A DNA stretch of 64,000 nt from Bdellovibrionales bacterium (GTDB lineage Bacteria > Bdellovibrionota > Bdellovibrionia > Bdellovibrionales > Bdellovibrionaceae): contig JAFEAQ010000011.1 in the NCBI GenBank assembly GCA_018266295.1, forward strand, positions 1,153,626 through 1,217,625, written 5' to 3'. Below, piece by piece: positions 37,596 to 43,974 of this stretch. The position numbers and the translations under genes were made by a program. The first letter of the stretch is position 1. Every line of letters starts with the position of its first letter. Below the pieces are notes generated by a model. It was not told the origin of the DNA. It did no database searches and worked only from the letters and a program-made list of their open reading frames with translations.

Positions 37596-40289
37596 ATGGC
37601 GGAACAAAATACGAACCAGCTCTCAGATCGTTACAACCCTCAAGAAGTTGAAGGCAAAGTTTATCAGTGGTGGGAAGAATCCGGTTTCTTTAAAGCAGAG
37701 AACCGCTCGACGAAACCTCCATTCAGCATCATCTTGCCTCCACCGAACGTCACAGGCTTCTTGCACATGGGGCATGCTCTCGATCATACAATTCAGGATT
37801 TACTCATCCGTTGGAAACGCATGAACGGTTTCAACACCATGTGGTTGCCAGGCACGGATCACGCCGGCATTGCGACTCAATCGGTTGTTGAAAGAGAACT
37901 CAAAAAGAATGAACACGTCACTCGCCACCAACTCGGCCGCGAGAAATTCGTAGAAAAAATCTGGGACTGGAAACGCCAGTACGGCGATCGCATTTATTCC
38001 CAAATGCGCCGCTTAGGTGATTCTTGTGACTGGGAACGCGCGACCTTCACTCTCGATGACGGTGTTTCTAAAGCCGTTCGCAAGGTTTTCGTTTCTCTTT
38101 ACAAAAAGAACTGGATCTACAAAGGCCAAAGACTCATCAACTGGTCGGGCCCTCTCGAGACAGCCATCTCGGACCTCGAAGTAGAATACAAAACCGTTAA
38201 AGGTTCTCTCTGGCACATCAACTACCCGCTCGAAGATGGTTCAGGCTTCCTGACGATTGCAACGACTCGTCCAGAAACTCTCTTGGGCGACACGGCGGTT
38301 TGTGTCAACCCTGAAGATGAGCGCTACAAAGCTCTCATCGGTAAAAACGTGATCGTGCCTTTGATCAATCGTAAGGTAAAAATCATCGCGGACTCGTATG
38401 TTGATAAGTCTTTCGGTTCCGGCGTTGTGAAAATCACTCCGGCGCACGATTTCAATGACTACAAAATCGGTAAAGCGCACAACCTCGATTTCATCAATAT
38501 TCTGACGAAGAAAACAACGATGAACGAAAACGCGGGTCCTTACCAAGGCCTCAGCGTGATCGAAGCTCGCAAGAAAGTGATCGAGGATCTTAAAAACTTG
38601 AACCTTCTCGTCAAAGAAGAGCCTCACGTGAACAACGTAGGTCACTGCTCGCGCTCAGGCGCTGTGGTTGAGCCCTTCTTGTCGGAACAGTGGTTCGTTA
38701 AAACAGAAGGCCTTTCTGTTCCTTCTCGCCGTGTGGTTGAGAGTGGTACAATTCGCTTTGAACCTGAGTCTTGGACAAAGGTTTACCTTCACTGGATGAA
38801 TATCATCGAAGACTGGTGTATTTCGCGTCAGCTTTGGTGGGGTCACCGTATTCCTGCATGGAACTGCCCTGACTGCGGTCACGTGACTGTCTCTGAGACA
38901 GATCCTACGGAGTGCGAAAAGTGCCATAAGAAAAACCTCACGCAAGAGGAAGACGTTCTCGATACTTGGTTCAGCTCGGCATTGTGGCCGTTCTCAACAA
39001 TGGGCTGGCCGGAAGAGACTGAAACTCTGAAGACGTTCTACCCAACCAGTTACCTAGTCACTGGTCACGATATCATTTTCTTCTGGGTTGCTCGTATGAT
39101 CATGATGGGTCTTGAGTTCAAACGTGATGTGCCGTTCAGAACGGTTTACATTCATGGCCTTGTTCGCGACTCTCAAGGTAAGAAAATGTCTAAGAGCTCC
39201 GGCAACTCTGTTGATCCGGTTGAAATGATCGACAAGCACGGTGCGGATGCGCTGAGATTCTCGTTCCTCGCTCACTTGTATTCCGGTAAAGACTTCAAGT
39301 TTGCTGAGCAACGCCTCGAAGGTTACCGCAATTTCATGAATAAGATCTGGAATGCGGCCCGCTTTGCTCTGACGAATCTTCAGGACTTCCAAGCTCCGGC
39401 AGATGGCGTGAAGGCTTTGCCAAACAAGGCGCAGATTTCGATCTTCGACCAATGGATCATCACGAAACTTGGCGAAGTAGAAAAAACGGTCGAGGAAGCT
39501 CTCGAGCAAGAGCGCTTCTCAGACGCGGCAACGGCTTTGTATCAGTTCACATGGAATCAATTCTGTGACTGGTACATCGAGTTCACAAAACCGATCTTCA
39601 GCGGCTCTAACAAAGAAGAGCGCGCAGCGACTCAGCTCGTGATGGCGCAAGTTCTCAATCGTATGATGAGACTCTTGCACCCATTCATCCCGTTCATTTC
39701 GGAAGAGATTTACCAAAAGCTTCCGATCCGCGGGAAGGCTTGTATCATCGACCAATACCCGAACACGCGTAACGATAAAGACTTCTTGGCTTTGGGTTCA
39801 CCACAAGCCGCTTACGAAATCGATATCGTTAAAGACGTTGTGACTGCGATCCGCAATATCCGCGGCGAGAACCGCATTAGCCCGGCAGAAAAGCTCAATG
39901 TGCGCTTGGGTATTACAGAGGCCGATATCCAAAAGGTCCTGGGTAATAACAAGACAGCCATCATGACAATGGCTCGTTTGGCGAATCTGGATATCGGTGC
40001 TGACGGCAATCTGCAAAAGTGCGCGGTTGCCCCAATCACCACGAAGATGGGTCAAATCAAGGTCATTATTCCGTTAGAAGGCCTTGTGGATTTTGATGAG
40101 GAAATTAAGCGTCTTAATAAGGGTATCGAGAAGCTAAACAAGGATATCTCGATGCTGACGAGTAAGCTTTCCAATGAAAAATTTATAGCCAATGCCGATG
40201 AGGACGTCGTCGCTGCTGATAGAGAGCTATTAGCTCAAAGTAAAGTGCAGATCGAGTCCATGAAAGAGGCCCTTGTAAGATTCCAATAA
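37596..40289 (+). CDS. valS: Valyl-tRNA synthetase
   Basis: 897 residues. The HIGH motif is HMGH at 57-60 (PPPNVTGFLHMGHALD) and the KMSKS motif lies near 530 (GKKMSKSSGNSVDP). The editing domain (TIATTRPETLLGDTAVCVNP) is intact. A zinc-binding CPDC...CEKC pair lies near 425-445, and the C-terminal coiled-coil arm (EEIKRLNKGIEKLNKDISML) is typical of ValRS. It charges tRNA-Val in the cytoplasm. Monocistronic by position. Confidence 0.97.
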   Translation: MAEQNTNQLSDRYNPQEVEGKVYQWWEESGFFKAENRSTKPPFSIILPPPNVTGFLHMGHALDHTIQDLLIRWKRMNGFNTMWLPGTDHAGIATQSVVERELKKNEHVTRHQLGREKFVEKIWDWKRQYGDRIYSQMRRLGDSCDWERATFTLDDGVSKAVRKVFVSLYKKNWIYKGQRLINWSGPLETAISDLEVEYKTVKGSLWHINYPLEDGSGFLTIATTRPETLLGDTAVCVNPEDERYKALIGKNVIVPLINRKVKIIADSYVDKSFGSGVVKITPAHDFNDYKIGKAHNLDFINILTKKTTMNENAGPYQGLSVIEARKKVIEDLKNLNLLVKEEPHVNNVGHCSRSGAVVEPFLSEQWFVKTEGLSVPSRRVVESGTIRFEPESWTKVYLHWMNIIEDWCISRQLWWGHRIPAWNCPDCGHVTVSETDPTECEKCHKKNLTQEEDVLDTWFSSALWPFSTMGWPEETETLKTFYPTSYLVTGHDIIFFWVARMIMMGLEFKRDVPFRTVYIHGLVRDSQGKKMSKSSGNSVDPVEMIDKHGADALRFSFLAHLYSGKDFKFAEQRLEGYRNFMNKIWNAARFALTNLQDFQAPADGVKALPNKAQISIFDQWIITKLGEVEKTVEEALEQERFSDAATALYQFTWNQFCDWYIEFTKPIFSGSNKEERAATQLVMAQVLNRMMRLLHPFIPFISEEIYQKLPIRGKACIIDQYPNTRNDKDFLALGSPQAAYEIDIVKDVVTAIRNIRGENRISPAEKLNVRLGITEADIQKVLGNNKTAIMTMARLANLDIGADGNLQKCAVAPITTKMGQIKVIIPLEGLVDFDEEIKRLNKGIEKLNKDISMLTSKLSNEKFIANADEDVVAADRELLAQSKVQIESMKEALVRFQ

Positions 40290-40298
40290 AAGGGCCTT

Positions 40299-40319
40299 GC
40301 GCTCCGCGAAACGGAGCGC
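40299..40319 (+). terminator. GC-rich hairpin behind valS
   Basis: An eight-base-pair stem (GCGCTCCG with CGGAGCGC, loop of five) ten bases past the valS stop. No T-run follows, so termination strength is uncertain. It separates valS from the purine riboswitch downstream. Confidence 0.5.
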
Positions 40320-40337
40320 TATACCCTCGTTCGTCCC

Positions 40338-40402
40338 CTAAGTATAAGCCGGAAATAAGGTCCGGAGTTTCTACCCGCCACCGTAAAAGGCGGACTATTT
40401 GG
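40338..40402 (+). promoter_or_regulatory. Purine riboswitch, guanine type, P1 overlapping the ribosome binding site
   Basis: All parts of the purine aptamer can be placed. P1 pairs 40338-40344 with 40396-40402 (seven pairs, two of them G-U). J1/2 is TAAG. P2 pairs 40349-40353 with 40361-40365 (CCGGA/TCCGG) around loop L2 AATAAGG. J2/3 is AGTTTCTACC. P3 pairs 40375-40379 with 40389-40393 (CCGCC/GGCGG) around a loop containing CCGTAAA. The base equivalent to position 74 in the xpt aptamer is C40395, in GGACTAT, which specifies guanine (or hypoxanthine) rather than adenine. The 3' strand of P1 contains the first two bases of the GGAG ribosome binding site (40401-40404) of the nuclease gene. Ligand binding should therefore hide the site and turn translation off, with no separate expression platform. 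Confidence 0.92.
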
Positions 40403-40411
40403 AGATCAACG

Positions 40412-40894
40412 ATGAAGGCTCTAGCTCTCGCGGTTTTAGTTCTGAGTACTCTTAGCTTCCAACAATCGTTCGCCGACAGTTTTCCTACTGGCCCGGCTTT
40501 ACAAGTAACCCCAGGCAAATTATGCGATAAACCGAATGCTTACCGCTATCCGGAAAAAATCGCTTATTGCGATCGCGATGTCAGCCCGGGCCTCAAGCAC
40601 CAAATCATCGAAGATTATGACCGCAAATTCGGTTACAACATCGAATCTATGCCTCGTAACGAATTCAAGATCGACCACTTCATCCCACTTTGCGTAGGCG
40701 GAAGTAACGACGTTACAAACTTGTGGCCACAACACGAAAGCGTGTACACAATCACAGACCCTCTCGAAGAGGCTCTTTGCGATAAGATGTTCCATGGGAA
40801 GCTTTTGCAGAAAGATGCAGTAAGACTCGTGATTGAAGCGAAGACTCACTTAGACGAGGCTCCTGCGATCCTCGCCCAAGTGAATGCTCTCTAA
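40412..40894 (+). CDS. Secreted HNH-like nuclease under purine riboswitch control
   Basis: 160 residues with a signal peptide ending SFADS. The core FKIDHFIPLCVGGSNDVTNL and the following WPQ form the DH...GG.N...NLWPQ pattern of small HNH/beta-beta-alpha-metal nucleases, with His89 as the probable general base. Four or five cysteines suggest disulfides outside the cytoplasm. A 160-residue exported HNH protein most likely cuts DNA or RNA in the periplasm or outside. GGAG lies seven bases before the ATG and is part of the riboswitch P1 helix. Nuclease activity is inferred from the motif. Confidence 0.8.
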   Translation: MKALALAVLVLSTLSFQQSFADSFPTGPALQVTPGKLCDKPNAYRYPEKIAYCDRDVSPGLKHQIIEDYDRKFGYNIESMPRNEFKIDHFIPLCVGGSNDVTNLWPQHESVYTITDPLEEALCDKMFHGKLLQKDAVRLVIEAKTHLDEAPAILAQVNAL

Positions 40895-42664
40895 TTATTC
40901 CTGAGTATATGAAACCTTGACGGAGCTAGTCTCTGTCATGGTGACGTCATCCGCCAGTAAGAGCACGCCATTTGCGAAACTGTACTTGCTGGCATCGATT
41001 GCAACTCCGTCTACTTCTACTTTCACAATCTTCATTGCCATTGTGTCTTTCAAAGTGAACGAGCGACCGAGTTTCGTTAATACATCCGTTTTCAAATCAG
41101 CAAAGTGTTTCGACCAATCCAAATCACAGATGTTGTAAACCTGCGAACCCGTTTGAGTTGCGAGAGTTTGGTAAACCGCCCCCGTCGCCGCCTGACACTT
41201 ACTCACGGAGCTGCCAAGACCAATGAAGCTGAAGATCGCAGCCTGACCGGAAGCCACACCGGCTTTTGCTAAATTCGTCGTAAAGTTCGCAGCCGTCATC
41301 GACGAGTTGTCATCTGTTACAAACACGATGATCTTCTTAGAATCCGCACGGAAGAACGGAATACCGCTGCTAATGTTGAAGTTCAACTGACTGATCAGCT
41401 GCGCAGGACCGTCGTTAGAACCGATTGTCTTATTATACTGAACGAAGCGAGTTGCATCCAAGCCACTTGGCAAAGCCACAGACGTCCCTGTTGTTCCTTG
41501 CTTACTGAGAAGCATGAACTTCATGTCTGAAGACTTATCCAAAGCATTGATGAAAGCTGTCAGATTCGCACGAACGTTTGCCGCCTCTTCATTCATAGAA
41601 CCCGAGTTATCAATCACCCAAACCATATCAAGTGGCTTCATTGTCTTAGTTGCACTGATCGAGAAGCTTTCAGTCAATACAGGTGGTGGGTTACAAGCAC
41701 CATCCTGACGGAGGAACGCACCTTTTTGGTAGTCACCCGTTGAGCTGAACGAACCGTTTGTGCAGAGGTTCTTCTCTTGTTTTTCATAGACGTTGGCAAG
41801 ATTGCCGCCATACTTACAAGCCGCAGCCTCAGAGACCGTTTGACCCGCCAAAGTTACGAACTTAAAGCCGCCGCTAACAACACCGTCAGAACAGTTACAA
41901 GCACCCGTCGTCTGCAAGAGCTTACCTTTAGAGAACATGTTTTGAGCTACAGACTGAGAATTCGTGCAGATATAAGTCTGCTGCTTCTCATAGACGTATT
42001 GCAAGTTACCGCCGTTCGGGCAGAGACCTTGCTCAACGATTGTTGCATTAGGAACGAGCTTGATTGAAGAAGCCCCTTCCGCAGAGCCATCGGCACATTT
42101 ACAAGCGCCGGCTTGGCTGAGGAGTTTGCCTTTTTGGTAATCTTCAGAAGAAACAAGCTTGCCGTTGTCGCAAGTGTACTTCTGTTGTTTTTCATAAGTC
42201 AGAGTCAAAGTGCCGTTGGCGGGGCATGCTTGGTTTTCGCTGATGGTTTGACCATCAACGTTTTTCCAAACGCTCATGCCATTGTTCACGCCATCAGCGC
42301 AGTTACAAGCGCCTTTCTGGCCAAGGAGTTTACCTTTTTGGAATTCATTGCTGCCGACGTACTTACCGCCATCGCAAAGAAGCTTTTGTTGTTTCTCATA
42401 AACCATCGTGAGGTTGCCGCCGAAGTCACACTTGCCCGGCTCTTCGATGTTTTGTCCGTTCACGACTTCCCATTTAATAGAGCCGCTGACTTGGCCGTCA
42501 TCACAAACCGCTGGTGCCTGTGATTCCTCATCGCCTTTTGCAGCGAGAGCATTGGCAGCTTCTTCTGGCTTAAATGATACAGGAGCGCAGTTCTGGAAAA
42601 GAACGCTTGTGAAGAGAGCCATACCGAAAATCAGCGTGGCTATACGCAGGCTACGTGCTTTCAT
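40895..42664 (-). CDS. VWA-domain lipoprotein with four 68-residue cysteine repeats
   Basis: 589 residues from the second of two in-frame ATGs (42664; GGGGG six bases upstream). The signal peptide ends in SVLFQNC, the same atypical lipobox as the GH44 protein. Next come four tandem units of exactly 67 residues plus one spacer, each with Cys at unit positions 1, 26, 44 and 67 and a shared VYEKQQ...C..G...DYQKGKLL core. A von Willebrand A domain follows: its MIDAS motif is DNSGSM in DMVWVIDNSGSMNEE, and KIIVFVTDDNSSM lies near the middle. The C-terminal part ends SVKVSYTQE. Such proteins usually bind proteins or surfaces through a metal ion. Probably at the cell surface. The stop abuts that of the nuclease gene from the other side. 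Confidence 0.85.
   Translation of the reverse strand: MKARSLRIATLIFGMALFTSVLFQNCAPVSFKPEEAANALAAKGDEESQAPAVCDDGQVSGSIKWEVVNGQNIEEPGKCDFGGNLTMVYEKQQKLLCDGGKYVGSNEFQKGKLLGQKGACNCADGVNNGMSVWKNVDGQTISENQACPANGTLTLTYEKQQKYTCDNGKLVSSEDYQKGKLLSQAGACKCADGSAEGASSIKLVPNATIVEQGLCPNGGNLQYVYEKQQTYICTNSQSVAQNMFSKGKLLQTTGACNCSDGVVSGGFKFVTLAGQTVSEAAACKYGGNLANVYEKQEKNLCTNGSFSSTGDYQKGAFLRQDGACNPPPVLTESFSISATKTMKPLDMVWVIDNSGSMNEEAANVRANLTAFINALDKSSDMKFMLLSKQGTTGTSVALPSGLDATRFVQYNKTIGSNDGPAQLISQLNFNISSGIPFFRADSKKIIVFVTDDNSSMTAANFTTNLAKAGVASGQAAIFSFIGLGSSVSKCQAATGAVYQTLATQTGSQVYNICDLDWSKHFADLKTDVLTKLGRSFTLKDTMAMKIVKVEVDGVAIDASKYSFANGVLLLADDVTMTETSSVKVSYTQE
41693..42505 (-). repeat. Four tandem 204-base coding repeats (68-residue units)
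   Basis: These encode residues 56-326 of the VWA lipoprotein, counted from the upstream ATG. Unit length is constant, each unit has the same four-cysteine spacing, and the sequence has diverged mainly between the cysteines. The constant length points to a folded module rather than a low-complexity linker. Confidence 0.85.
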
Positions 42665-43017
42665 TTTCATCCCCCTGAACGTGAATTAACGTCTTATTAT
42701 TATCGGCATATTTGTTTATTTTTTAATATCAAAGACTAGTGAATGTTCCACATCGGATAGGAACTCTTTCGACACTGTCTCAGACTGAAACATTTTTTTT
42801 GGTGCAAGCTTGAAGTTCAACCGTTCGAAGAAAGTTTTCGGACTTGTTCGGAGATGTCGAGTTTTCCTCACGCTCCCGAGCATCCGCTGGAATGATCGCG
42901 GACCCACACAGAGCCAAGGGAGCAAATAGATTTCCTCAGTACGTACATATGCGTCCGCAATCAGGACTCTGAATCTAAACGTACATAACTCAGATTCTAT
43001 TTTATAAAATAATAAGC
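42665..43017. other. Divergent intergenic region, no gene seen
   Basis: 353 bases between two divergently transcribed secreted-protein genes. The part nearest the VWA gene is AT-rich (about 42680-42740), the rest mixed. A minus-strand open frame at 42716-42925 has no signal peptide, no good start and no recognisable product, so I do not call it. Promoters for both genes must lie here; I could not assign them. Confidence 0.6.
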
Positions 43018-43974
43018 ATGCATCGCTCTCGAAGTTTACCCATCATGTTTCTGCTGACTGGAATCTTATGGAGCGAGCATTGCTTTTCTCAAATTACTCC
43101 TTTTGCATTCTGGAAAAAGAAAACTCCTTCAGCTCCTGTGGTTATAACCATCGTTACATCGAATGCCAGTTGGGCGGTTCCGAGCGACTGGAACAACTCT
43201 GACAATCTCGTTGAGTGTATTGGCGGCGGCGCAGGCGGAGCTCCTGGGCAAAGCTCAGGGGGCTTCAACGGCGGGGGTGGAGGCGGTGGCGGGGCTTACA
43301 CTTATGTTCAAAACATGACTCTGACTCCTGGTGGAACTGCTGCCGTAGTCATTGGTGCCGGAGGAAGTTCTGGCGGTAACGGTGGCGATACCACCTTCAA
43401 TGGCGCTGCAAACTTAACTGCAAAAGGCGGCACGACCGGAGCCTCTTCAGGCACCGCCGGTGTTGGCGGCTTGGTTGCCTCCTCAATTCCCTCTGCGAAT
43501 GCTATTGCAGGTGGTGATGGTGGCGCTGGCGGCGGCGGCATTGCGGGAGCTGGAGGCGGTGGTGGCGCGGCAGGTCCTGATGGCCCCGGAGGCAAAGGGG
43601 GTAATGGAAATGCCGGCTCCAATAGCGGCGGCGGCGGCGGTGGCGCTGGAAATGGCGGATCTGCTGGCGCTAACGGGACTTCTACAACAGGAGGAGCGGG
43701 CGGAACCTCAGCCAATGGTGGCGGTGCCGGCGGTAAGGGTTCAAATCAATTCACCAGTAATGCCGTTGCAGGTTCTGCCGGAACAAACTTCGCAGCCTCT
43801 GTCGGTAGCGGCGGTGGCGGTGGTGGTGGCCCCGGAGGCGTCAGCACCGGCACAGGTAAAGCTGGCGGCAATTACGGCGCAGGTGGTGGCGGCGGGAGCG
43901 GATTTAGTGGTGCATCTGCAGCGGGCGGTGCCGGCGTGAAGGGCGCTTGTCGCGTTACCTATACGCCGCCTTAA
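43018..43974 (+). CDS. Secreted glycine-rich protein
   Basis: 318 residues. The N-terminal signal (PIMFLLTGILWSEHCFSQ) is followed by a short beta-type part (VVITIVTSNASWAVPSDWNN, NLVECIGGGAGG). About 250 residues of Gly-rich sequence with interspersed Ala, Ser, Thr and Asn then run to a C-terminal CRVTYTPP. The start and end frame resemble the glycine-rich domains found in phage tail and surface proteins, where W..P......V..IGGG...G opens the domain. It may form a polyglycine-II-like or extended surface structure. Function unknown. Convergent with arsC; the stop codons overlap. Confidence 0.75.
   Translation: MHRSRSLPIMFLLTGILWSEHCFSQITPFAFWKKKTPSAPVVITIVTSNASWAVPSDWNNSDNLVECIGGGAGGAPGQSSGGFNGGGGGGGGAYTYVQNMTLTPGGTAAVVIGAGGSSGGNGGDTTFNGAANLTAKGGTTGASSGTAGVGGLVASSIPSANAIAGGDGGAGGGGIAGAGGGGGAAGPDGPGGKGGNGNAGSNSGGGGGGAGNGGSAGANGTSTTGGAGGTSANGGGAGGKGSNQFTSNAVAGSAGTNFAASVGSGGGGGGGPGGVSTGTGKAGGNYGAGGGGGSGFSGASAAGGAGVKGACRVTYTPP

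Follow-up and report, generated by a model that had tools for sequence, protein, structure and literature searches.

The leader of a gene for a predicted exported nuclease in a Bdellovibrionales bacterium contains what is probably a guanine-I type riboswitch, one that turns translation of the nuclease off and belongs to a purine-feedback regulon. The gene lies in a 64,000-nucleotide stretch of contig JAFEAQ010000011.1, here called the window. By its sequence and structure the window RNA truly belongs to the guanine riboswitch class, and the leaders, as read across the lineage, combine an unusual target set with a minimal expression platform for such a riboswitch. The same arrangement is found on five nuclease families with at least three unrelated folds, which is a stronger point than the counts of sites.

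The aptamer and the gene that follows it

The Rfam purine model (RF00167) matches the window over its full length at 40320-40417 on the + strand (cmscan, 55.0 bits, E 1.1e-6; the gathering score is 37 bits), and no second Rfam match was found in the 64 kb. This covariance search, proposed in an initial annotation of the same DNA, agrees with the purine aptamer described there, the Rfam alignment placing P1, P2, L2, J2/3 and P3. All features are on the + strand. The 5' strand of P1 (CTAAGTA) is at 40338-40344 and its 3' strand (TATTTGG) at 40396-40402, as placed by the alignment and by P1 covariation across 74 leaders; this helix has only about 7 bp and includes G-U pairs. P2 is a hairpin at 40349-40365, with the arms CCGGA (40349-40353) and TCCGG (40361-40365) around L2 (AATAAGG, 40354-40360). 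J2/3 follows at 40367-40374 (GTTTCTACC, also given as GTTTCTAC) and includes U47 (40368) and U51 (40372). P3 is a hairpin at 40375-40393, with the arms CCGCC (40375-40379) and GGCGG (40389-40393), and the loop CCGTAAA reported earlier is found in the sequence. The CC of L3 (40381-40382) pairs with the GG of L2 (40359-40360) to form the kissing loops. P2, P3 and this contact are supported by the Rfam alignment together with the covariation analysis, in which the L2-L3 pairs are invariant (74 sequences). The guanine specificity base C74 is C40395, it completes a U22/U47/U51/C74 pocket and is of the type that had been annotated.

The Shine-Dalgarno sequence GGAG (40401-40404), identified from the sequence and the site survey, has its first two G residues inside P1 and is separated by 7 nt from the ATG at 40412. 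Upstream, valS ends at 40289 and 48 nt separate it from P1. In this interval a perfect G+C-rich inverted repeat, GCGCTCCGCGAAACGGAGCGC, is present at 40301-40321 with no T run after it; it could be the 3' end of valS or a part of the leader. When the upstream sequences of the leaders were aligned, no positional signal for a conserved promoter appeared just before P1, and the leader could thus be transcribed by read-through from valS.

The three helices P1, P2 and P3 all covary in the aligned leaders. Over the first seven pairs of P1 the arms form 5.76 pairs with their own partner and 4.73 with swapped partners (z 9.5), a comparison that is inflated by kinship of the sequences; the pairs beyond these (k7-9) had no covariation support in the same test. 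In the whole structure the share of paired cells is 85.9%, as against at most 41% in a slid control, which is free of that fault. Changes on both sides are seen in 20 of the 24 pairs of the aptamer alignment, and in 6 of the 6 alignment pairs of P2. The covariance score, the covariation and the conservation rule out a chance match. The minimum free energy of the window leader is not below that of shuffled sequences (z 0.59), so the case for the aptamer is made by the covariance score and the covariation.

The open reading frame at 40412-40894 (+) encodes a 160-residue protein with a hydrophobic stretch at the N-terminus, predicted from the frame, its motif and its modelled structure to be an exported HNH-like nuclease. 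Pfam HNH profiles match residues 80-105, all of them below the curated cut-offs (HNH_5, 18.6 against 27.5 bits; HNH, 13.5 against 21.4 bits). Among 64 relatives D88, H89, N99 and N103 are invariant and H108 is nearly invariant, in the conserved context IDHFIPLxxGGSNxxxNLWPQH. The predicted model (pLDDT 94.5) has a strand-strand-helix element over residues 85-127 (strand 85-89, strand 104-108, helix 109-127), which is the order expected for an HNH site. The best Foldseek matches in the PDB are weak matches to HNH nucleases (E 0.064), and in VIA structural alignments the best HNH chain reaches a Z of about 4, a value equalled by unrelated helical bundles. We use the label HNH-like because the Pfam matches are below cut-off, the Foldseek matches weak and the VIA alignments no better than helical bundles. 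The exported HNH-like product named in the initial annotation is supported as a prediction, and this type of target is kept across the phylum.

Two further genes of the window were noted. The frame at 40895-42670 (-) is a convergent neighbour, its end adjoins the nuclease stop codon, and a metal site motif like that of von Willebrand A domains (DNSGS) occurs in it. The frame at 43018-43974 (+) encodes a predicted exported protein of 318 residues that is extremely glycine rich.

Targets across the phylum

Of the 66 genomes of the family, 56 contain an RF00167 match at or above the cut-off, as do 92 of the 369 genomes of the phylum. We took 150 sites, extracted the following open reading frame for each and clustered the proteins. 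Predicted exported nucleases follow 134 of these sites, DUF3465 proteins 4 and EamA transporters 12, counts in which sites from related genomes are not independent; no purine synthesis or salvage gene is the target at any of the 150 sites. For all 134 nucleases export was predicted from a hydrophobic stretch at the N-terminus, recognised with a simple hydropathy rule rather than with SignalP. The window gene had been called an unusual target, it is so by comparison with known guanine riboswitches, yet in this lineage such targets are the rule.

The nuclease targets comprise 76 HNH-like proteins, 39 of endonuclease I, 11 PD-(D/E)XK-like, 6 EEP (endonuclease/exonuclease/phosphatase) and 2 EndoU. 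A representative of the endonuclease I group matches Pfam PF04231 (E 1.8e-32) and the EndoU targets match Pfam with an E-value of 6.9e-16. The EEP targets form two clusters, with Pfam matches just below cut-off and weak matches to ExeM/NucH in NCBIfam. Long insertions that leave the core intact are present in P3 of two aptamers (L144, L111) and in P2 of four others (L103, L104, L110, L119); these aptamers are on EndoU or endonuclease I genes.

Four purine riboswitches are present in the genome that contains the window, each before a predicted exported protein. Besides the window gene, the targets are a second HNH-like protein (L004; Pfam HNH 20.0 bits against a cut-off of 21.4), a PD-(D/E)XK-like protein (L001) and a DUF3465 protein (L003:1589-2041 (+); Pfam E 2.6e-20). 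The L001 protein has 194 residues and is predicted to be exported; its family has the invariant residues D82, E98 and K100 in GELD...GEVK. Its model (pLDDT 90) finds mostly restriction-endonuclease-like folds with Foldseek and aligns with an XisH-type structure in VIA (Z 8.3, rmsd 3.3 over 102 residues), and every Pfam match is below cut-off. Its motif and modelled fold mark it as a PD-(D/E)XK-like nuclease. In Bdellovibrio bacteriovorus strain kdesi, to which the hit L157 belongs, there are three switches, on genes for endonuclease I (L014), a PD-(D/E)XK-like protein (L044) and an HNH-like protein (L061).

The four DUF3465 targets are L003, L020, L028 and L095, of which L028 was assigned by eye and the other three by clustering. 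No informative solved relative was found that bears on DUF3465 as a nuclease. That these proteins occur beside nucleases among the targets suggests that this family of unknown function takes part in nucleic-acid digestion.

The EamA transporters (L092, L093, L100, L101, L112, L114, L118, L035, L058, L137, L140, L142) are the sole type of target that is neither nuclease-like nor DUF3465. Their aptamers are mostly U48C, with one U48A. These leaders seem to contain complementary segments (GTTAATA and TATTAAC in L100), which suggests a separate switching hairpin.

Within the family the aptamer precedes 48 of 53 strong HNH homologues and 39 of 93 endonuclease I genes. Among the best 80 relatives of the HNH-like protein the aptamer is present in 41, and many of those that lack it are labelled Bacteriovoracaceae. 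As the aptamer is missing from many homologues, this control is not essential for nuclease function. Most of these 80 relatives have Bdellovibrio-, Bacteriovorax- or Oligoflexia-like labels, a small number of odd taxon labels on metagenome bins among them are probably wrong, and the HNH-like family seems to be nearly confined to the phylum.

Leaders of the same nuclease family in different genomes have an identity of 70.9%. For different nuclease families the identity is 65.5% within the same genome and 65.5% between genomes, and by this comparison recent copying of leaders between nuclease genes was rejected.

Ligand, expression platform and alternative readings

Guanine riboswitches contact their ligand through U22, U51 and C74 (PMC9295807). 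These three bases are kept at every site in the phylum where the motif was read, a reading that demanded C74; five sites missed by the motif also show C by eye. From this pocket the ligand is expected to be guanine or hypoxanthine. The nuclease targets themselves raise the thought that the RNA naturally binds a nucleoside or another purine freed by nuclease action, such as 2'-deoxyguanosine, guanosine or xanthine, as in the 2'-dG-II riboswitches reported on genes for endonuclease I and the DNA-acting ComEC (PMC8872408). We regard this as improbable, since U51 is kept here and the insertion in J3/1 is absent. The 2'-dG classes have C51, with two further bases inserted in J3/1 of 2'-dG-II (PMC8872408), and xanthine-II has U51G (PMC9295807); the 2'-dG and xanthine classes were rejected because their pocket bases disagree with those found here.

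The initial annotation stated that P1 covers the Shine-Dalgarno sequence. The overlap is real and is conserved in the phylum; the covering is partial in the window, where two of the four GGAG bases are inside the supported P1. Of 133 readable non-EamA sites, 129 have the first base of the Shine-Dalgarno sequence 0-6 nt into the P1 3' strand, and all 133 have the start codon at most 20 nt from P1. The EamA leaders provide an internal contrast, since the Shine-Dalgarno sequence, where it can be located, is 9-43 nt from P1 with no overlap, and the start codon is usually at least 33 nt beyond P1. The compact P1/Shine-Dalgarno lock goes with the nuclease genes. In the non-EamA leaders the gap between aptamer and gene is too short for any terminator; for the window gene a terminator platform was rejected, there being no transcription terminator on the + strand between 40200 and 41000.

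In the mechanism that we propose, guanine (or hypoxanthine) would close the aptamer and stabilise P1, the 3' strand of which holds part of the Shine-Dalgarno sequence, and the start of the ribosome would be blocked. When guanine is low P1 would be loose, and the nuclease would be translated and exported. A device shared by unrelated exported nucleases would make up a purine-feedback regulon for foreign nucleic acid, which for Bdellovibrio would be that of the prey. That the switches are almost only on exported nuclease genes in this lineage suggests that digestion is lowered when guanine suffices. The fusion of P1 with the Shine-Dalgarno sequence would be about the smallest possible translational switch. 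We give an even chance to a further claim, that the Bdellovibrionota devote their guanine riboswitches to product feedback on extracellular nucleic-acid digestion, a circuit in which prey guanine stops the translation of unrelated exported nucleases together and P1 acts as the ribosome-binding-site lock.

The switch might act by another route, through coupled mRNA decay, Rho access or an ON mechanism that releases the Shine-Dalgarno sequence from a different pairing. In folding models the Shine-Dalgarno sequence is largely paired even though P1 is forbidden, in L002 and L003 through bases just 5' of P1, and this would fit such a route. In nearly all non-EamA leaders, however, its bases are part of the P1 3' strand; a closed P1 therefore cannot expose them, and we consider a different route unlikely. 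Across 131 leaders, partition-function folding put the mean Shine-Dalgarno exposure at 0.33 (P1 forbidden), 0.29 (P1 free) and 0.28 (P1 locked), and many single leaders went one way or the other; the model is without tertiary contacts and ligand, and so neither supports nor refutes the switch. It is very unlikely that the aptamer is a relic that lies beside the gene by chance and has no regulatory function. A minority of homologues have lost it or never had it, as a relic might, but the helices covary, the pocket is fixed and the aptamer recurs on the five nuclease families.

Comparison with known systems

The usual targets of guanine riboswitches are genes of purine synthesis, salvage or uptake (PMC9295807). 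The RNAs described here share with the guanine-I riboswitch (RF00167) the three-way junction, the kissing loops, the U22/U51/C74 pocket and the full-length covariance match. They differ in their target, which is an exported nuclease, and in P1, which overlaps the Shine-Dalgarno sequence, whereas guanine-I has a separate terminator/antiterminator platform. If the proposal is true, a riboswitch class seen as housekeeping purine control regulates the exported digestive system of predators. No earlier description of this regulon, or of a link between Bdellovibrio and purine riboswitch targets, was found in the literature searched, and the distribution survey of Singh and Sengupta 2012 (cited in PMC5584792) may already list some of the genes.

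In the available text of two studies, predation by B. bacteriovorus involves the successive secretion of several nucleases (PMC7925074; PMC3593177), and Bd0934, Bd3507 and Bd1244 belong to the endonuclease I family (PMC3593177). Like these proteins and Bd1934, the targets described here are predicted exported nucleases of a predator, and the 39 endonuclease I proteins are among them; the window protein is HNH-like and is outside the secreted nuclease list as far as that text gives it. The same available text has no mention of riboswitch control of these nucleases. A double nuclease deletion in B. bacteriovorus is described there as raising DNase activity with only slight changes in transcripts, for which raised translation is an option given by the authors (PMC7925074). 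On that portion of the account, we suggest that lost guanine feedback would fit the rise and may bear on it. If true, the circuit would explain in a testable way how predators meter the breakdown of prey nucleic acid, and it could contribute to the timing of nuclease production during the predatory cycle.

The nearest precedent is the 2'-dG-II riboswitches of Bacteroidetes, which occur before endonuclease I and other genes, the products of two of which, endonuclease I and ComEC, act on DNA (PMC8872408). Both systems have a purine-family aptamer before endonuclease I genes, in different phyla. The 2'-dG-II aptamers have C51, a G-C pair atop P1 and the J3/1 insertion, whereas those described here have U51, an A-U pair and no insertion.
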